Below, one piece after another: positions 3,656 to 63,307 of a stretch of 64,000 nt of DNA (within the stretch, counting starts at the first letter, position 1; every line of letters begins with the position of its first letter). The stretch spans positions 1-64,000 of the forward strand of contig JANWJQ010000164.1 in the NCBI GenBank assembly GCA_025451875.1, read 5' to 3'. The notes beneath the pieces were generated by a model. It saw only the letters and a list, made by a program, of their open reading frames with translations. It was not told the origin of the DNA and did not search any database. Source of the stretch: Rhizomicrobium sp. Lineage in GTDB: Bacteria; Pseudomonadota; Alphaproteobacteria; Micropepsales; Micropepsaceae. Both the position numbers and the translations under genes were made by a program.

Positions 3656-3905
3656 AGGTGCGCCGACAGGTCTATTCGCGGGTCCTTAACGATCTGCCAA
3701 AAAGCGACTTCCCAAAACTTTGAGCGGAACTTTGCCATCCGTCAGAAGCAGAGCGAAGGCGGTCGTTATCCCGAAAAGCTATCGCAGCGAGCGATGCATG
3801 TGGGCGAAAACGCTCATATATATTGAAATTTGTATATTCTTTTACACAGCTCAGTAACGAGAGTCGTGCCAGTCTGAAATTGGTTCACTGGACGCCAAAG
3901 TACCG

Positions 3906-4868
3906 ATGCTCAGGCAGAAACTCTTTGCCACGTTGATGTGGTGTGGAATGTGCGTTGCGATCGCGATGATCGTTGACTATGGCGTCACTATCCTAATCTT
4001 GCGGGCCTACCAGAGCTATACGCCGCTGATCACGCTGTGCATTGCCACACTTGTCAGTTTTCCAACAACTTACGTTCTCGTGAGCAGCAAGTTCGATTTG
4101 CGCAACGCGCGCGATGAGCTTGCTGCAGCACGCGATGCGGCCGTCAACGCCAATCTGTCGAAGACACTCTTCTTCGCCAATATGAGCCACGAGCTTCGGA
4201 CACCACTAAACGCCATCATCGGCTTTTCGCAATTGCTTGAAACAGACCTCTTCGCCGGCAAACGGGTAGAATATGCTCGCCTGGTGCATGAATCGGGGCG
4301 GCACTTGCTAGATCTGGTGAACGACCTGCTGGATATCTCCAAAATTGAAGCTGGCCGGCTGCAGCTCGACAACAGTGACGTTTTCCTCAGCGAGGTCATG
4401 TCAGAGTGCTGCAACATCGTCGAGCCGCGCCTTCGCGCAGGGCGCTTGCGGTTGGTTCGGCACATCGATTGCGATCTACCCTAGGTGAGAGGCGACCAGC
4501 GGGCGCTCAAGCAAATCGTGCTCAATCTTCTGACCAATGCCGTCAAGTTCAGCAAAGCGGGAGGAAAGATCGAGATTTTCGCCTCGCTTGTCTCCTCCGG
4601 TGAAGTCGCGTTTGGCGTCGGTGATGAAGGGATCGGTATCGCGCCTGAAGATCACGCACGAGTTTTTGAACGCTATGGGCGTGCCCGGCACGAAGTGAGG
4701 CAGGTGCGAGAGGGAACCGGTTTAGGCCTCCCGATCGTAAAGGGTTTGGCCGAGGCGCATGGCGGTCGCGTCAGCCTTGAAAGCCAGCTCGGCAGCGGAA
4801 CCCGTGTCACAGTTTGGCTTCCGGCTATTCGCGTCGGGAGCACGGGAGTGAAAGCGCTCGCTTCATGA
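3906..4868 (+). pseudogene. Membrane sensor histidine kinase interrupted by an in-frame amber codon
   Basis: Two membrane segments (about residues 8-33 and 40-58), a short coiled linker and a HisKA domain (NMSHELRTPLNAIIGF, phosphoacceptor His about 95) are read from 3906. The frame ends at TAG 4482-4484 and resumes in the same frame at 4485 with VRGDQRALKQIVLNLLTNAVKF (N-box) and then GDEGIGI (G1) and GTGLGLPIVKG (G2). In intact relatives the dimerisation and ATPase parts are joined through a segment like LPxVRGDxRALKQI, so the TAG replaces a single residue codon with no other damage. Either the gene is a recent nonsense pseudogene, or the two halves are made separately or by readthrough; the GTG right after the stop has no convincing ribosome site. 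No HAMP or sensory domain is present. No partner regulator is adjacent. Confidence 0.8.
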
Positions 4869-5087
4869 GATACTTTTGTAGCGAAAGGAACTTGATCCAT
4901 TCAGTAGAATAGTGTCGAGCGCTCTATAACCGGAGCCGGAGATGTTAAAGGATGTTCCGTCTAGTGTCGGCCGTCGCATAAAGGAAAATGCTCTTCCACC
5001 CACACGAATGGGATATGCATTGGTCTCCAGATAACTTTCGTTTTTGATCAAGACCGCAACTGAGCGAGAGGGCCGGTTCGCGCAACG

Positions 5088-5660
5088 ATGACGGAACGGA
5101 ACGATCGGATGAAGGAGTTCAGCAAAACCAATGCGAAAAAAATCATTAGGCAGCTGAACCTTGAAGCGTCCAATCGCGCGCTTGCAGATTATTGGCTGTC
5201 TTTGTGGGAAGCTGACAAGCTTCCTGCCCGCACCAAATTGAGTCCGTCCCATCTGGGCCCTTATCTGCGCGGCATTCTTATGTTCGACGTGATACCCGAT
5301 ACGCGTGTAAGCGTTCGGCTAGCGGGTACCGGATATCGTATTGTCTTGGGCGCAGACCCAACCGGCGCAGACTGGATAGCCGCGGCACCAGAAGACCATA
5401 GGGCAACTCGGCTAACGATATTCTCAACAGTCGCCAGAGGTGCAGTACTTGTGGCTCATCGTTGCCTAACAATGTTGGACGGCGAGGTTTTCGTCAGCGA
5501 AGAAATCCTGCTTCCGTTTGCGTCGGAACCGAGCGGAACCGTTCCGATCTTGGCCCGGGTGAATTTTACAGAGAGTCAATTCATGCGGATCAAGAGTATT
5601 CCGCAGGTCACGGGCAATCCGTTGGATCACAAATTGATCTCACTTGCTGAAACCGAATGA
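5088..5660 (+). CDS. PAS_5-family (PF07310-like) protein
   Basis: A 190-residue soluble protein matching the alphaproteobacterial PAS_5 pattern: an early ADYWLSLWEADKLPAR motif (about residues 30-45), then LRGILMFDVIP, a VRLAGTGYRIVLGADPTG core (about 82-99) and a strand rich in LPFASEPSGTV near the C-terminus. The family is a lone PAS fold with no effector domain; biochemical function is largely undefined and ligand or partner sensing is inferred from the fold. The start at 5088 is assumed; ATG at 5109 is an alternative. It follows the broken kinase in the same direction after a ~220-bp gap, so a functional link is possible but unproven. Confidence 0.75.
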   Translation: MTERNDRMKEFSKTNAKKIIRQLNLEASNRALADYWLSLWEADKLPARTKLSPSHLGPYLRGILMFDVIPDTRVSVRLAGTGYRIVLGADPTGADWIAAAPEDHRATRLTIFSTVARGAVLVAHRCLTMLDGEVFVSEEILLPFASEPSGTVPILARVNFTESQFMRIKSIPQVTGNPLDHKLISLAETE

Positions 5661-55406: not shown

Positions 55407-57332
55407 CTAGAATTTCCACCGCGTATCGACGAAGAAGCTGCGCTTGATCTCATCGCCCGGCGCGAATTCCAGATGATGGTCGTGCAACAGGTTGAAGCCG
55501 GAGAGCGACAGCTCGATCTTCTCGGTGATCATCCAGCCCAGCCGTGCATTCAGTTCGACATAAGACGGCACATGCGGATCGGGAAGCCGGCCGACATAGC
55601 GGAAGTCCGCATCGAAGGTGACGCTGTCACTGAGGTTCATGGAGGAGCGCAGCGACGCCTGATGGTGCGGATCGTTACCCTGTTGCGACAACCCCAAAAG
55701 CCCGCTCGCGCCGGGTTTGAATTTGAAGCTCTCGCTCTGAATGTTCGCACCCGCCGACAGCTTCCACCAATCGGCCGCTTCATAGGTGGCCCAACCCTCA
55801 ATGCCGTACACCCGGCCTTTCATGCCATTGCCCCAATGAAGCGGCAGAAACCCGGATACCTGGTCGAGTTCGATGCTTTTAAGGTCGTCATATTCATCGT
55901 CGAACGCCGACAGCGAAAGCGAAGCGTTCTGCGATAACTGCCCGCGATAACCCAGTTCGTAAGCCGTCAATTTTTCCGGAAGGAAATCGGGATTGCCGTT
56001 GAGAAAACGCGTCGGCCCCAGATCTTCGCCCACATGGGTGTCGAACGGCGTCGGCGAACGGACGGCATAGGAAATCGCGGCCCACAGCATATTGCTGTCA
56101 TCCAGCCGCCAGGATGCGCGTGCGTTCGGCATGGGCGTAATGCCCGAATAGGGATCGTTCTCGAATTTCAGGCCGAGCTTCAGGTCGAAATTATCCGACA
56201 GTGCCATCTGATCCTGGATGAATATGTCCGAGAGATTCAGACTGCCCCGGTTCGGAATGAAGAGAAGGGAGGTCGCCGGGCCTATCTGGTTGGTAATGGA
56301 ATAATGGCTCAGGCGCTGGCCGGCACCTACCACGATGTTGTTCCAGCGTCCCAGCGAGAAATTGTATTGGGCGTCGATATTGTAGGTATCGACCGTGAAG
56401 CCGGCGCTACCGCCGGTCGTGGTGCGTTCGACATTGTCGTAATAGGCCAGCACCTGCAGCGAACTTCCGTCCGCGAAATCATGGCTCCAGTTCGCCGACA
56501 GATTGCCGCCGGAGATCAGTCCGTCGGCAGCCGCGCCATTGTTCTCGCGTCCATCATAGACATCGCCCTGCACCGTCAGCGTGTCGTCGCCCGGCGTCCA
56601 GTCCAGGCGAAAGCCGCCTTGCGGCTTGTACCAGCCGTCATGCGCGGAGGTGTCGAAAGACTTGTCGCGGAAGGTTTTGATATAGGCGCGATAGGTGAGA
56701 TCGTCGCTCAGTACGCCGCCATATTGCAGGCTGGCGCTTGCATATTGATTGCCCGCGCCGAATTCCAGCACACCGCCCTGCGTGTCGGAGGATTTGCGCG
56801 TGACGATGTTGATGACGCCGTTGACGGCGTTCGCGCCCCACAAGGTCGCGCCCGGCCCGCTGATGACTTCGATGCGCTCGACATTTTCGGGCAGCACATC
56901 CTGCATGTCCCAATACATGCCGGAGAAGAGCGGATTATAGACGCTGCGGCCGTCGATCAGCACGAGCAGCTTGTCGGAGAAATTCTGCGCGGCGGAATTT
57001 CCGCTGAAGCCGCGCGCGGTGATGATGTAATTGGCGGGGCTGGTTTGCGCGACCTGAAGGTTGGGCGCCAGGCGCAGCATTTCCGGAATGCTGGTCGCGC
57101 CGGAACGCACGATATCGTCATGCGTGATCACATAGATCGCGGCGGGCGCGGCGCTCAGCTTCTGGGCGCGCTTGGAGACGGAGGTGATCTCCACATTGCC
57201 CAGCTGCTCGATGGAAAGCTTGCTGAAATCCGCGGCGGCAATCTGCTGCTGCGCCTGCGCAGGCGCCAAACAGCCTCCTCCGAGAGCGGCGGTAAGAATG
57301 GCCGCCAGCCCGTAGCCCCTCGTCCTTGGCAT
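55407..57332 (-). CDS. TonB-dependent receptor heading a signalling operon
   Basis: A 641-residue outer-membrane receptor. The signal peptide ends APAQAQ; then comes FSKLSIEQLGNVEITSVSKRAQ, the N-terminal motif of a receptor subgroup often found beside DUF4154 proteins, the plug (IYVITHDDIVRSGATSIPEMLRLAPNLQV, ARGFSG, DGRSVYNPLFSG, ERIEVISGPGATLWGANAVNGVINIVTRKSSDT) and the barrel ending in Phe (DTRWKF). The ligand is unknown. It is the promoter-proximal gene of the operon, 124 bp from the divergent transglycosylase gene. Confidence 0.92.
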   Translation of the reverse strand: MPRTRGYGLAAILTAALGGGCLAPAQAQQQIAAADFSKLSIEQLGNVEITSVSKRAQKLSAAPAAIYVITHDDIVRSGATSIPEMLRLAPNLQVAQTSPANYIITARGFSGNSAAQNFSDKLLVLIDGRSVYNPLFSGMYWDMQDVLPENVERIEVISGPGATLWGANAVNGVINIVTRKSSDTQGGVLEFGAGNQYASASLQYGGVLSDDLTYRAYIKTFRDKSFDTSAHDGWYKPQGGFRLDWTPGDDTLTVQGDVYDGRENNGAAADGLISGGNLSANWSHDFADGSSLQVLAYYDNVERTTTGGSAGFTVDTYNIDAQYNFSLGRWNNIVVGAGQRLSHYSITNQIGPATSLLFIPNRGSLNLSDIFIQDQMALSDNFDLKLGLKFENDPYSGITPMPNARASWRLDDSNMLWAAISYAVRSPTPFDTHVGEDLGPTRFLNGNPDFLPEKLTAYELGYRGQLSQNASLSLSAFDDEYDDLKSIELDQVSGFLPLHWGNGMKGRVYGIEGWATYEAADWWKLSAGANIQSESFKFKPGASGLLGLSQQGNDPHHQASLRSSMNLSDSVTFDADFRYVGRLPDPHVPSYVELNARLGWMITEKIELSLSGFNLLHDHHLEFAPGDEIKRSFFVDTRWKF

Positions 57333-57456
57333 CGTGTCCCCTGCTCAGCCCACAACCATCGGCAGGGGCAGAACGCGGGGGGTAGTCAAAAGTTCCATGT
57401 CTTTTGCGCGATTTCAGCGGCCTTTTCTGCCCCCCAGAACCGGGTGAGAATGGTGC

Positions 57457-58631: not shown

Positions 58632-59684
58632 GTGAGTTCGAAGGGCTTTTCGGAAGACCACCCTGCCAGGGTGGCCGTTTCATCCGTGACCGATCCGCTG
58701 AATGCGGAACTGGCGCGCCGCGTCCTTCAGGCCGCGCCCACCATCATCTATGTCTATGACCTCCAAGACGCGCGCAGCGTTTTCCAGAACCGCCGCTTCG
58801 CCGAACTTCTCGGCCATGCCGAAACGCCGGCCGACGAATGGCGCGGTTTCATGCATCCCGAAGATGAGAAGCGTTTTGCGCAGCATCGCGCCCGGCTGAA
58901 GACGATCGCGCCCGGCGAGACGCTGTTCTGGGAATTTCGCATGCGCGATGCGGGCGGCCAATGGCGGTGGTTTCTCGGGCGGGATGTCCTGCTTTCGCAG
59001 GATGATGCCGGCAAGCCTCTGCTCATTGTCGGCAACGCGGCGGACATCACCGAGCAGAAGGATGCCGAGGAGCATATGGAAATCCTCGCCGGCGAGATGC
59101 GCCATCGCGCCAAGAACCTCATCTCGCTTGTCGAAGGGATCGGACGCTTGTCCCGTCCCAAAAATCGCTCCGACATCGACGCCTTCATCGATGTTTATAT
59201 GGGCCGCCTGAAGGCGCTTCTGCACACCGGCGATATTGTTTTGTCGTCCAATCAGCGCATGGCGTATCTGTCGGCCGTGGTGGAAACCGCATTAAAGCCT
59301 TTTCAAAACGACGATTCACCGGAACGCATCGCCCTGCGGGGACCGGCGGTGATCGTGTCGGAAAAAACAGCGGGCGGCCTCGCATTGGCCCTCCACGAAC
59401 TGGCGACCAACGCCGTGAAATATGGCGCTCTGTCGGTGCCCGCCGGAAAAGTCTCGCTGCAATGGACCTTGACGCCGCACGAAACCGGCGAGCGGTTCGC
59501 CATGGAATGGCAGGAAAGCGATGGCCCGCCGGTCGCGCCGCCGCAAGCCGAAGGCTTCGGCGGCAAAGTGATCCGCCACAGCATCGCGCATGAACCCGCC
59601 GGGCGGATCGCGCTCGAATATTTGCCGGACGGCCTGCGTTGCAGTTTCACTTTTGAGATTCCGTTCGGAAACCCGAATTCCTGA
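58632..59684 (+). CDS. PAS-HWE family histidine kinase (soluble)
   Basis: A 350-residue cytoplasmic kinase: a PAS domain (about 25-145; TIIYVYDLQDARSVFQNRRFAELLG and DITEQK at its end) followed by an HWE module with EMRHRAKNLISLVEG (His about 157), HELATNAVKYGAL (N-box) and the WQESDGPPV segment holding the diagnostic Trp-Glu. HWE kinases are common in alphaproteobacteria and several feed into the general stress response; the PhyR locus is 2.8 kb away. GTG 58632 is preceded by AAAGGAT. A 7-bp hairpin (CCACCCT-GCC-AGGGTGG, 58658-58674) lies just inside the gene. It converges on the next kinase gene with 4 bp between stops. Confidence 0.9.
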   Translation: MSSKGFSEDHPARVAVSSVTDPLNAELARRVLQAAPTIIYVYDLQDARSVFQNRRFAELLGHAETPADEWRGFMHPEDEKRFAQHRARLKTIAPGETLFWEFRMRDAGGQWRWFLGRDVLLSQDDAGKPLLIVGNAADITEQKDAEEHMEILAGEMRHRAKNLISLVEGIGRLSRPKNRSDIDAFIDVYMGRLKALLHTGDIVLSSNQRMAYLSAVVETALKPFQNDDSPERIALRGPAVIVSEKTAGGLALALHELATNAVKYGALSVPAGKVSLQWTLTPHETGERFAMEWQESDGPPVAPPQAEGFGGKVIRHSIAHEPAGRIALEYLPDGLRCSFTFEIPFGNPNS

Positions 59685-59688
59685 CCGG

Positions 59689-61458
59689 CTAGTGCAGAGT
59701 CTCGCCGGTGCCGGCGCCTTTGGACGCGAAGGCCGGATCGTTTGACGGCATGTCGCGCGATACGCGAATGGCGGGGCCTTGCGTGCCCGAATGCACCGGC
59801 AGGCGCAGCGACAGACGCGATTTTCCTTCCGCCGTTTTCTCGATCCAGAATTCGCCTTTGAGCTGTTCGGCCAATGCGGCGAGAATCCTCTGCGGGGATG
59901 GCCGCCCCTTGGCGAGCGCCGCGGAAGCGAACACGCCGTCCTCGATCCACAGCAGAAGATGATCGGGGCCGTCGCCGCCGAAATGCAGATCGACATGGCG
60001 GATGGCTTCATCCTTCTGCGGCACGAAGAGTTCGAACGACAAGGCTTCCACCGCGAAGAAGGACACCGGCGTCGCCATGTCCGGTGGCAATAGCCATTCT
60101 TCGGCGTCGATGGTGAGCCGGTAGCGAATGTTGCTTTCGACGGCGACGGTCCGCATCTGCTCGCCAAGCTCGATGAACAGGCGGCGCATATCGAGGATCG
60201 GCGTTGTGTCGTTCATCTCCATGAGGCGCTGGATCAGTGTCAACGCACCCACACGCGCCAGTATCTGCGAAAACGCCAGGCGGCTCCCCGCATCGGCGAT
60301 GTTCTGCGAATAAAGGCTGATCAGGCTGGCGACGATCTGCAGATTGTTCTTGATGCGGTGATGGATTTCGCGCGCCATCGCCGATTTCTGCGCCAGCGCA
60401 AAATTGAGCGTGCGGTCGCGGTCGCGGATGGATGTCGCCATATTCTTCATTTCGTCGCCGAGAACCCGGAACTCGTCGGGTGCTTCCTCAAGCTCGGTCA
60501 ATTCCAGGGCGAAATGGTTTTGCCCATAGGCTGCGGAAACGCGCTTCAGATAGGTCGTCCAGCGGATGACGAAACGCTCGGTGCCGAGCCACATCGCAAT
60601 GGACGCCAGGATCACCATCAGAAGCGGCAGCAGGATATTTCCCAACAGATATGCCTGCGAAACGCCGAAAGGCAGCGGCTCTTCCATCGCGAACGCAATC
60701 AGCCGCCGGCTGTTTTCGATCCGCTCCGCCGTCCAGCGCCAGCGCACATGGTCGCCGGTGTCTGCATAGAAGGTGTGCTGCTTGTGATCGACGCCGGCTT
60801 TCGCCACCGCCTTGTTCAAACCGTCGGGAACAGCCCGGTTGGATGCGATGATGGTGCCGCCGCGATCCACAATCAGCATCAGCCCGTAGGGCGGCAATCT
60901 TCCGTAGGGGCTTGTCTGGCTCACCCAGCGCAGATCGAGCGCCGCGCTCAATGCGCCCTTGAAGGCGCCGGACGCATCGTGAAGCGGCAATGTGTAGGGA
61001 AGCACGGGGCGCTCGGCCGCCGCGCTGGCAAGCACCGGCGGCACACCGGCGGCTTTTCGCGGCTGAATCCGCTTCCACCAGGGAAGTTTGGAATAATCAG
61101 GCACATCGAACGCACCTGTGGATGAGCATACCGGCTTTCCCTGCGCGTTCACGAAGGTCAGGTTGAGTATGTTGGGCAGGCCGATGACGGCAGTCTTCAG
61201 CATTCTGCCGCAGGCGACGGGATCGGCATCCAGTTCGGAACGCGCGGACAAGCCCTGCAGCAGATGCGCGGTGCCGGAGAAGATGTTCAGTTCGTTATGG
61301 GTCGCGTAGATCGCAGTCTGCCGCAGCACGTCGTCGATCGCCGCCTGGCGCGCGCGCACATGCATGACGCCCTGGGCGATGCTGGCGATGGCGAGCGGCG
61401 CGAGCGCCAACACGACGATCAACATCAGCTGCGCGCGAAGTGACTTCGCCTTCAACAC
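59689..61458 (-). CDS. HisKA_2-type sensor kinase of the stress locus, degenerate ATP-binding domain
   Basis: A 589-residue membrane sensor with TM1 (about 11-30), a ~240-residue periplasmic Cache-like domain, TM2 (about 275-295), a HAMP-like linker and a HisKA_2 module (REIHHRIKNNLQIVASLISLYSQN, His about 367). The C-terminal ATPase part is unusual: where active relatives show an ELVTNALKH-type N-box, this reads FFAVEALSFELFVPQ, and the DDG glycine loop is reduced to WIEDGVFAS. It is 30 bp downstream of ecfG in the same operon, which points to a role in the general stress response (PhyK-like sensor or a modulator without kinase activity). Confidence 0.85.
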   Translation of the reverse strand: MLKAKSLRAQLMLIVVLALAPLAIASIAQGVMHVRARQAAIDDVLRQTAIYATHNELNIFSGTAHLLQGLSARSELDADPVACGRMLKTAVIGLPNILNLTFVNAQGKPVCSSTGAFDVPDYSKLPWWKRIQPRKAAGVPPVLASAAAERPVLPYTLPLHDASGAFKGALSAALDLRWVSQTSPYGRLPPYGLMLIVDRGGTIIASNRAVPDGLNKAVAKAGVDHKQHTFYADTGDHVRWRWTAERIENSRRLIAFAMEEPLPFGVSQAYLLGNILLPLLMVILASIAMWLGTERFVIRWTTYLKRVSAAYGQNHFALELTELEEAPDEFRVLGDEMKNMATSIRDRDRTLNFALAQKSAMAREIHHRIKNNLQIVASLISLYSQNIADAGSRLAFSQILARVGALTLIQRLMEMNDTTPILDMRRLFIELGEQMRTVAVESNIRYRLTIDAEEWLLPPDMATPVSFFAVEALSFELFVPQKDEAIRHVDLHFGGDGPDHLLLWIEDGVFASAALAKGRPSPQRILAALAEQLKGEFWIEKTAEGKSRLSLRLPVHSGTQGPAIRVSRDMPSNDPAFASKGAGTGETLH

Positions 61459-61488: not shown

Positions 61489-62121
61489 TTAGCCGGGAGC
61501 CTTCTCCGTGACCGACCGTCCGAATTTGAAAAATGCATCGGTGGGATCTTCTGGATGCTCCGACCGCGCCGGTAATACGCCATCTTTTCCTTCGACAAGG
61601 CTTTCCAGCCGCTTGCGCGCACGCGACACGCGGCTCTTGATCGTTCCGACCGCGCAACCGCAAATCGCGGCGGCTTCATCGTAACTGAACTCCCCAGCGG
61701 TCAAAATCAGCGCTTCCTTCTGTTCGAACGGAAGCATGTTGAACGCGCGCATGAGATCCGACAGGTCGAGCGAGGCATGCTGCTCGGGCTCCATCGCATC
61801 GGAATGAATCGATTCCGCTGCCGCGTAGTTGGTGACCGTCTTGGCGCGGCGATGGTTCGAATAGAACTCATTGCGCAGAATGACAAAAAGCCAGGCTTTC
61901 AGATTCGTGCCCGGGCGGAATTTGTCGCGCGCCTGAAGCGCCTTGGCGAGCGTTTCCTGCGCTAGGTCGTCGGCCAGATCGCGCTTGCCGCACAAGGAAC
62001 GCGCGAAGGCACGCAGCACCGGAACCATTTCAACCAGACCGGCGCGGAATGTCTTTTCCTCTTCCTTCGTCATCGGACGAGGAGCGTCTTGGTGTTCGTG
62101 GGCTTCCAGAGGCCGGTTCAT
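61489..62121 (-). CDS. ecfG: General stress response sigma factor EcfG
   Basis: A 210-residue ECF sigma factor of the EcfG (ECF15) group. Region 2 has DLADDLAQETLAKALQARDKF and GTNLKAWLFVILRNEFYSNHRR; region 4 has FNMLPFEQKEALILTAGEFSYDEAAAICGCAVGTIKSRVSRARKRL. It directs transcription of stress genes with GGAAC...CGTT promoters once released from NepR. The nepR stop overlaps its start by 4 bp (ATGA), so sigma and anti-sigma are made together. The residues after 170 are a variable tail. Confidence 0.95.
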   Translation of the reverse strand: MNRPLEAHEHQDAPRPMTKEEEKTFRAGLVEMVPVLRAFARSLCGKRDLADDLAQETLAKALQARDKFRPGTNLKAWLFVILRNEFYSNHRRAKTVTNYAAAESIHSDAMEPEQHASLDLSDLMRAFNMLPFEQKEALILTAGEFSYDEAAAICGCAVGTIKSRVSRARKRLESLVEGKDGVLPARSEHPEDPTDAFFKFGRSVTEKAPG

Positions 62122-62333
62122 GCATCCGACTCCTTTTTGCCGTCAATTTTCTGAAGCAGCGCCATGAACTCGTCCGGGACGGGTTCGGAGGCGACCGTGT
62201 CGAAGAACTTGCGAAGACCCTGCGTGATAGCCTTCTGCTGCGCCCTGTGGGTCTGCGGCTTGGGCGTTCGGGTGCCTGCGCGGGCGACGCCTTCGGCGCT
62301 CACGACACCGTCCTCGCGGATTTTGTCGGCCAT
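62118..62333 (-). CDS. nepR: Anti-sigma factor NepR
   Basis: A 71-residue protein with the conserved NepR core QQKAITQGLRKFFDTVASEP and VPDEFMALLQKID (about residues 34-66). NepR binds EcfG under normal growth and is captured by phosphorylated PhyR under stress. Start ATG 62333 is chosen; a longer open frame upstream has no matching conservation. It leads the nepR-ecfG-kinase operon and diverges from phyR. Confidence 0.93.
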   Translation of the reverse strand: MADKIREDGVVSAEGVARAGTRTPKPQTHRAQQKAITQGLRKFFDTVASEPVPDEFMALLQKIDGKKESDA

Positions 62334-62416
62334 ATCATACTCCGAAACATAAACATGTGTAGTATCAATCGGTTGGAGGTTGGCCGTTGGCGACGCCTCG
62401 GTTCCTGCGCTACAAT

Positions 62417-62441
62417 AACCCAAGGGCCGGATTTTTGTTCC
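62417..62441 (-). promoter_or_regulatory. Probable EcfG-type promoter for nepR-ecfG
   Basis: On the minus strand GGAAC (62441-62437) is followed by 16 bp and GGTT (62420-62417), one base from the GGAAC-N16/17-CGTT consensus of EcfG promoters. It would start transcription about 75-80 bp upstream of nepR, giving autoregulation of ecfG. Confidence 0.55.
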
Positions 62442-62447
62442 ATCACG

Positions 62448-62473
62448 GGAACTTTGTTTTTGCCCGCCGCGTT
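62448..62473 (+). promoter_or_regulatory. EcfG-type promoter of phyR
   Basis: GGAAC (62448-62452), 17-bp spacer and CGTT (62470-62473), an exact match to the EcfG consensus, 49 bp before the phyR start. Its -35 element faces that of the divergent promoter with only 6 bp between, as GTTCC-N6-GGAAC. Confidence 0.85.
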
Positions 62474-62521
62474 ATGCCCTCACTAGCGACATCGCTTGGA
62501 TCAAAAATAAGGGCCGCGCCT

Positions 62522-63307
62522 ATGAGTATGACCGCCACCCTCGGACCGCATCTTCCCTATTTGCGCCGGTATGCCAGAGCCTTGACGGGCTCACAGACCA
62601 GCGGGGACGCTTATGTGCGCGCCTCACTTGAGGCGCTCTTGGAAGGAAACGCCGAACTGGCGAAGGATGTTCCCCCGCGCATTGCCCTCTACCGGCTGTT
62701 TCATGTGCTGTGGTCGTCTTCCGGAAAATATGAATCTGCCGCATCGGGCGAAAAGCGCGGCGGCGTCGAAGGGCGGCTGCAATCTTTGTTGCCCACCAAT
62801 CGCGAAGCCCTGCTGCTGACCGCCGTGGAAGGCTTCAGCATGCCGGAAGTCGCCAAGATCCTGGACTGGAGCGAAGGCGATGTGGAGCAGGCGATCAACG
62901 CCGCGCTCAAATCCATCGACCGCGATCTGGAATCGCGCGTTCTCATCATCGAGGACGAATCCATCATCGCGCTCGATATCGAGAACCTCGTCACCGAGAT
63001 GGGCCACAAGGTCACCGGCATCGCCACCACGCGCGACGACGCTATCCGCATGGCGAAGGAGCAGAAGCCCGACGTCATCCTCACCGACATCCAGCTCGCC
63101 GATGGCAGCTCTGGCATCGATGCGGCGGTCGCGATCCTGAAGGATTTCGACATCCCGGTGATCTTCATCACCGCCTATCCGGAACGCCTGCTCACCGGCG
63201 AACGTCCGGAGCCAACCTATCTCATCACCAAGCCGTTCAGCCGCGACACCGTGCGCGCGACGCTCGGCCAGGCGCTGTTCTTCCATCGCTCGATGGCGCC
63301 GGCATAA
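62522..63307 (+). CDS. phyR: Stress response regulator PhyR (sigma-like plus receiver domain)
   Basis: A 261-residue anti-anti-sigma factor. The N-terminal half mimics a sigma factor (LGPHLPYLRRYARALTGSQ, then RLQSLLPTNREALLLTAVEGFSMPEVAKILDWSEGDVEQAINAA as region 4-like), and the C-terminal receiver has VLIIEDESIIALDIENLV, phosphoacceptor Asp in ILTDIQLADGSSGID (about residue 188), ITAYPERL and Lys in LITKPFSRDTV. When phosphorylated it binds NepR and frees EcfG. ATG 62522 (or 62528) is the start; the open frame extends upstream across the promoter and is not coding there. Confidence 0.96.
   Translation: MSMTATLGPHLPYLRRYARALTGSQTSGDAYVRASLEALLEGNAELAKDVPPRIALYRLFHVLWSSSGKYESAASGEKRGGVEGRLQSLLPTNREALLLTAVEGFSMPEVAKILDWSEGDVEQAINAALKSIDRDLESRVLIIEDESIIALDIENLVTEMGHKVTGIATTRDDAIRMAKEQKPDVILTDIQLADGSSGIDAAVAILKDFDIPVIFITAYPERLLTGERPEPTYLITKPFSRDTVRATLGQALFFHRSMAPA

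Follow-up and report, generated by a model that had tools for sequence, protein, structure and literature searches.

A PhyK-like sensor with a degenerate ATP-binding domain beside an intact HWE kinase at a general stress response locus of Rhizomicrobium

A stretch of 64,000 nucleotides from Rhizomicrobium sp. (assembly GCA_025451875.1, contig JANWJQ010000164.1, positions 1 to 64,000; hereafter, the window) carries a locus of the general stress response (GSR), in which the gene for a PhyK-type membrane sensor comes third in a nepR-ecfG-phyK operon divergent from phyR. This sensor retains its phosphoacceptor histidine, while its catalytic and ATP-binding (CA) domain has lost the motifs that mark such domains; we refer to phyK genes of this kind as the dead form. 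Two divergent EcfG-type promoter motifs lie between nepR and phyR, and the one reading into nepR is found in the same place in the other 7 dead-form loci. Genomes and loci compared are denoted by G and L codes, G000 being the window genome. The genes and domains at the locus, including the dimerization and histidine phosphotransfer (DHp) domain and the transmembrane (TM) segments of the sensor, are as follows.

58632 to 59684, plus strand: PAS-HWE histidine kinase, 350 amino acids, convergent with phyK; intact H-box, N-box (HELATNAVKYG) and GFG motif
59689 to 61458, minus strand: phyK/phyT-type gene, 589 amino acids, GTG start (open reading frame call, Pfam, NCBIfam); TM segment, dCache sensor, TM segment, HisKA_2 DHp, degenerate CA
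59794 to 60096, minus strand: degenerate CA domain, about residues 455-555; N-box Asn replaced by F475 (60034-60036), G1 E506-D-G-V-F510, G2 R-P-S-P-Q
60139 to 60396, minus strand: HisKA_2 DHp, about residues 355-440; phosphoacceptor H367 of HRIKN at 60358-60360
60838 to 61218, minus strand: dCache_1 periplasmic sensor domain, residues 81-207 (Pfam)
61489 to 62121, minus strand: ecfG sigma factor gene, upstream of phyK in the same operon (open reading frame call, Pfam, NCBIfam)
62118 to 62423, minus strand: nepR anti-sigma factor gene; ATG more likely near 62333; 4-base overlap with ecfG
62387 to 63307, plus strand: phyR response regulator gene; likely ATG at 62522; acceptor Asp in LTDIQLAD
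62417 to 62441, minus strand: EcfG-type promoter motif GGAAC-N17-GTT, reading into nepR-ecfG-phyK
62448 to 62473, plus strand: EcfG-type promoter motif GGAAC-N17-CGTT, reading into phyR

The window PhyK protein is predicted to contain two TM segments, a dCache sensor, and a HisKA_2 DHp domain. Both domains score above their Pfam cut-offs (dCache_1, 50.5 bits against 45; HisKA_2, PF07568, 54 bits against 22.3). The H-box EIHHRIKNN is intact and includes H367, and the H-box and HRxxN motifs are invariant in the alignment; the periplasmic residues C83 and C111 are cysteine in every PhyK aligned at those columns. The initial annotation, made from the sequence alone, had described an intact HisKA_2 His motif and a Cache-like sensor encoded inside the ecfG operon, and each of these points was borne out, with the NepR and EcfG genes lying directly upstream of phyK on the same strand. 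The protein thereby shows the architecture of PhyK, a membrane Cache sensor joined to HisKA_2 and encoded in the nepR-ecfG operon near phyR. It also aligns end to end with the NCBIfam PhyK model NF051872 (219.7 bits, 6e-65; residues 16-547 to model positions 2-530 of 537), while falling below the cut-off of 750 bits. As this cut-off is an equivalog threshold, the shortfall denies the protein the PhyK name, not the relationship.

The CA motifs were read from an alignment with congeners of the window's genus. The N-box reads VEALSFELF in the window versus VEALTNIFKHA in congeners, with E471-A-L-S-F475 in place of E-A-L-T-N. G1 reads IEDGVFA versus IADDGVGF, where a one-residue gap gives E506-D-G508, such that the catalytic Asp is replaced by Glu and the second Gly is gone, and G2 reads RPSPQR versus SVGSR. 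No HATPase family was detected in the Pfam scan of the window PhyK, and the CA fragment alone gave no Pfam match even at E<=10; the same part of the protein from three congeners matches HATPase_c above the cut-off. The protein thus lacks the HATPase domain with N-box Asn and G1/G2 found in active HisKA_2 kinases, as well as the conserved CA domain of the PhyK family. All 8 dead forms lack the N-box Asn and G2; E506-D-G is kept in the window, G072, and G034, while G1 consists of unrelated letters in G010, G026, and G062. The initial annotation had called the Asn and the DxG loop unrecognizable, which holds for the Asn and is slightly too strong for DxG, as ExG remains; alignment, which it had named beforehand as a possible refutation, restored no Asn and only ExG. 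Judged by these motifs, the window PhyK has lost parts needed to use ATP.

The degenerate domain has kept its predicted fold. AlphaFold2 modeling of the DHp-CA part with 38 homologs gave the usual alpha/beta CA fold at a mean predicted local distance difference test score (pLDDT) of 83.4, with values mostly of 80-95 outside the lid and poor values in the lid region alone. Structurally, this predicted, Bergerat-like fold came closest to HWE/HisKA2 kinases, above all to the kinase core of EL346 (PDB 4r39, 4r3a); EL346 differs in having an intact ATP pocket and a soluble LOV sensor. Ratios of nonsynonymous to synonymous substitution rates (dN/dS), calculated by the Nei-Gojobori method with dS partly near saturation, were 0.14-0.23 for the CA domain among G000, G072, and G034, 0.19-0.25 for the sensor domain, and 0.09-0.11 for the DHp domain. 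These CA values are close to those of many intact CA domains of congeners, and looser values (0.40-0.63) were found only in pairs with G062; the DHp domain was the most conserved in every pair tested. As the CA domain retains its predicted fold and is under purifying selection, it is repurposed rather than decaying.

Among 69 genomes of the genus, phyK was found in 45, of which 8 carry the dead form (G000, G034, G072, G010, G026, G033, G061, and G062). The N-box Asn is absent from all eight of this lineage, while the Asn and DxGxG are kept in the other 37 of 37, which makes the loss of the motif more than chance. The eight dead forms make up one fully supported clade both in a tree of PhyR and EcfG and in a tree of the PhyK sensor and DHp domains, from which the CA domain was left out. 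The species carrying them do not: alanyl-tRNA synthetase (AlaRS) separates G000, G034, and G072 from the other five and rejects a single clade (approximately unbiased [AU] test, p=5e-7), as does RecA (p=0.012). Conversely, the locus trees reject the AlaRS grouping of G000, G034, and G072 with G023 (p=8e-7 for PhyR and EcfG, p=9e-5 for PhyK). The dead-form locus is therefore one unit with a history unlike that of its species, and it was either transferred or is one of two old loci that were lost differentially. A simple loss of the ATP motifs within the genus, along the species tree, is rejected in view of this conflict.

Some further observations concern these genomes. Of the 24 genus members without a phyK match, G074 and G025 contain NepR and no PhyK match at E<=1e-30, and their GSR may run without a PhyK-type sensor. 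The genes recA and alaS are near-neighbors in most congeners; in G000, G034, and G072 they sit on separate contigs. Besides its full recA, G000 contains a second, partial RecA-like match (C20:92634-92996, L365; model positions 1-119, in a frame of 284 amino acids).

All 8 loci carry, directly downstream of the dead phyK, a convergent HWE kinase gene whose product keeps its H-box, N-box, and GFG motif. Beside intact phyK, a convergent HWE gene was found in 1 of 37 loci (G084), although a few of the intact contigs stop a short way past phyK. For this association, the Fisher value (4e-8) is to be taken as nominal, because the dead form is carried by just two species lineages. The HWE kinases in this position differ in lineage between the two species groups, and their grouping as one clade is rejected (AU p=0.009). 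G084 was considered as an evolutionary intermediate and rejected, as it sits inside the intact group and its HWE kinase belongs to another branch. A plasmid search returned only distant HWE/HisKA_2 kinases.

Relatives of the window HWE kinase, with about 60% identity, adjoin a second PhyR in three species with intact PhyK (G035, G013, and G076), and this second PhyR groups with the PhyR of the dead-form loci (99% SH-like approximate likelihood ratio test support). Because this type of HWE kinase accompanies the same type of PhyR in two contexts, it is a good candidate, by guilt by association, for the kinase of that PhyR type. The second PhyR and its HWE kinase lie at L331:4157-6499, L332:4675-6907, and L333:4693-7007, unlinked to nepR-ecfG-phyK, such that these cells have two PhyR proteins each.

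A survey of the wider class, covering 60 GSR loci around NepR together with loci from named genomes, found the N-box Asn also lost in Xanthobacter, Azorhizobium, Reyranella, and several further families, and G1 alone weakened in Ponticaulis, several Phenylobacterium, and others. A tree built without the CA domain needs about six changes, only two of them being required by well-supported branches. GSR sensors have thus lost ATP motifs repeatedly, in line with the proposal of the authors who described PhyT. One class case with an HWE neighbor was found (L244, in which G1 is lost). At another GSR locus (L262, G419), two HisKA_2 membrane sensors with dead CA domains are encoded together, at 110-1828 and 3828-5447.

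Several known systems resemble the window PhyK in part. Spo0B and ChpT have no membrane sensor and lie outside the GSR. They share with it DHp-type phosphotransfer by a degenerated histidine kinase (PMC5898713). Closer is PhyT (formerly PhyP) of Sphingomonas melonis Fr1, whose ATPase domain is degenerate and whose His passes phosphate received from SdrG on to PhyR; it binds unphosphorylated PhyR at the membrane, its His is needed both for transfer and for the membrane localization of PhyR, and it showed no PhyR~P phosphatase activity in vitro (PMC5898713). Compared by description, the two share a membrane sensor encoded at the phyR locus, an intact HRxxN motif in the DHp domain, a degenerate ATPase domain, and a role as GSR regulator of PhyR, which for the window protein is a probable one. 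They differ in that the PhyT donor SdrG, a single-domain regulator of the FATGUY type, was not found in the dead-form genomes, and in that the window lineage has an intact HWE kinase fixed beside phyK, whereas the Pak kinases of S. melonis are scattered in the genome. In Caulobacter crescentus, PhyK and LovK do not autophosphorylate and take phosphate from MrrA~P; PhyK mutated in G1 or G2 still works, ATP binding is not required, and a periplasmic Cys is needed for function (PMC5964349). The window protein resembles this PhyK (NF051872) in its two TM segments, periplasmic sensor with a Cys, HisKA_2 DHp domain, and GSR locus. Caulobacter PhyK, which acts in an MrrA-PhyK-PhyR phosphotransfer without a need for ATP binding, has an intact CA domain, whereas the window PhyK is without all three ATP motifs and reaches 219.7 of 750 bits. 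The initial annotation saw an inactive sensor as a notable twist on PhyK; the loss of the ATP motifs was confirmed, while the twist itself had already been published for PhyT (PMC5898713) and Caulobacter PhyK (PMC5964349).

By analogy with these proteins, we consider it rather probable that the window PhyK is a PhyT-like protein for ATP-independent phosphotransfer and PhyR sequestration, which would depend for kinase activity on other HWE kinases, probably on its neighbor. Such a protein would not autophosphorylate from ATP and would keep its phosphoacceptor His on the dimerization domain; it would hold unphosphorylated PhyR at the membrane and pass phosphoryl groups onto or off PhyR through H367, gated by the Cache sensor. 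The ATP-dependent step would fall to other HWE/HisKA_2 kinases, most probably the convergent HWE kinase, which might act on PhyR directly, through a receiver protein, or on PhyK itself. That a different kinase, possibly the HWE protein nearby, phosphorylates the sensor had already been suggested in the initial annotation. Together with an inactive ATPase domain, this fits all the sequence evidence, and the link to the HWE gene, present at 8 of 8 dead loci, is stronger than the window alone could show; the neighbor is probably the donor.

Some observations weigh against this interpretation. The 8 dead-form genomes represent two species lineages rather than eight independent cases, and most other GSR sensors with a dead CA domain (e.g., in Xanthobacter and Azorhizobium) have no HWE neighbor, such that the pairing is not general. 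Divergent ATP pockets can in some cases still bind nucleotide. In addition, motif and profile searches found no SdrG/MrrA-type response regulator with the PFxFATG (FATGUY) motif in the 8 dead-form genomes, and the published PhyT relay is therefore not exactly transferable. Strict-motif matches that are response regulators were found in other congeners, the match in G000 not being a response regulator, and the profile search of the dead-form genomes returned, apart from PhyR, only regulators whose motif was of another kind or degraded, the degraded ones in G033, G061, and G062. This absence is weak evidence, because several of the 8 genomes are incomplete, the window genome having a completeness of only 81.6%, and because the strict motif is missing from most intact congeners as well; for the last reason, a link between the dead CA domain and loss of SdrG/MrrA could not be shown. 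On contig C108 of G000 (L002, L208), a HisKA_2 kinase gene with intact ATP motifs lies directly upstream of a gene for a single-domain regulator of 156 amino acids (IRCLFATAHGD), which is also found in G072; this pair is a possible substitute for SdrG.

Other functions for the dead sensor were considered. It could act as a phosphatase or phosphate drain, doing no more than taking phosphate off PhyR, through hydrolysis or through reverse transfer to H367, so that the response stays off until the sensor is triggered, with the HWE kinase as the on-switch. This was the first model for PhyP; phyP is essential unless the GSR is impaired (PMC5898713), and an intact kinase dedicated to the pathway and encoded alongside would call for a brake. 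Since PhyT did not dephosphorylate PhyR~P in vitro and no sink receiver for reverse transfer was identified, we consider it unlikely, and by precedent it is the weakest of the options raised in the initial annotation. It is quite doubtful that the two neighbors make up a split sensor kinase. In that case, the HWE catalytic domain would phosphorylate H367 of PhyK in trans, the membrane Cache sensor and the soluble PAS sensor would be read jointly, and the unit would belong to a second type of GSR locus, standing in for the one with intact PhyK in different lineages of the genus.

A pure scaffold, which would sequester PhyR at the membrane and release it on stress with its His chemistry unused, would agree with the binding and localization of PhyR by PhyT and with a CA domain conserved without ATP motifs. 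The invariance of the H-box and HRxxN, the strong conservation of the DHp domain, and the double need for the same His in PhyT (PMC5898713) make this very unlikely. That the protein is an active kinase with a cryptic, non-canonical ATP pocket finds some support in the retained E506-D-G and in the predicted fold, and is highly improbable given the loss of the N-box Asn and G2 in all eight dead forms, the unrelated G1 of three of them, and the lack of autokinase activity even in the intact Caulobacter PhyK (PMC5964349). Nothing beyond the missing motifs speaks for a decaying pseudogene or an assembly error, which the open frame of 589 amino acids, its occurrence in eight genomes, and the purifying selection on the CA domain refute for practical purposes.

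The window also contains further EcfG-type motifs. The strict motif GGAAC-N15-18-CGTT occurs 8 times, versus 1.9 expected from shuffled sequences, with examples near 2295, 9517, 17789, 33034, and 40859, and neighboring genes may be EcfG targets. A TonB-dependent receptor gene (55407-57332, minus strand), which heads a cluster of the receptor, a protein of 188 amino acids, and a CHASE8 kinase, is preceded at a distance of about 40 bases by an EcfG-type motif (57372-57396, minus strand). A motif also lies near the start of the same gene in loci L163 and L160, and the receptor gene is a candidate member of the GSR regulon.

The dead ATPase domain by itself is already explained by PhyT. The literature searched does not describe the fixed pairing of a dead PhyK with an intact HWE kinase or the presence of two alternative locus types in one genus; these two features make the case a noteworthy variant, though not a surprising one. 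Caulobacter PhyK poses the puzzle of a sensor that keeps an ATPase domain it does not need. A genus with both states at the same locus, in which the dead state is always accompanied by a separate intact kinase, offers a natural comparison for asking at what point a sensor kinase turns into a phosphotransfer protein and to where its kinase activity passes.
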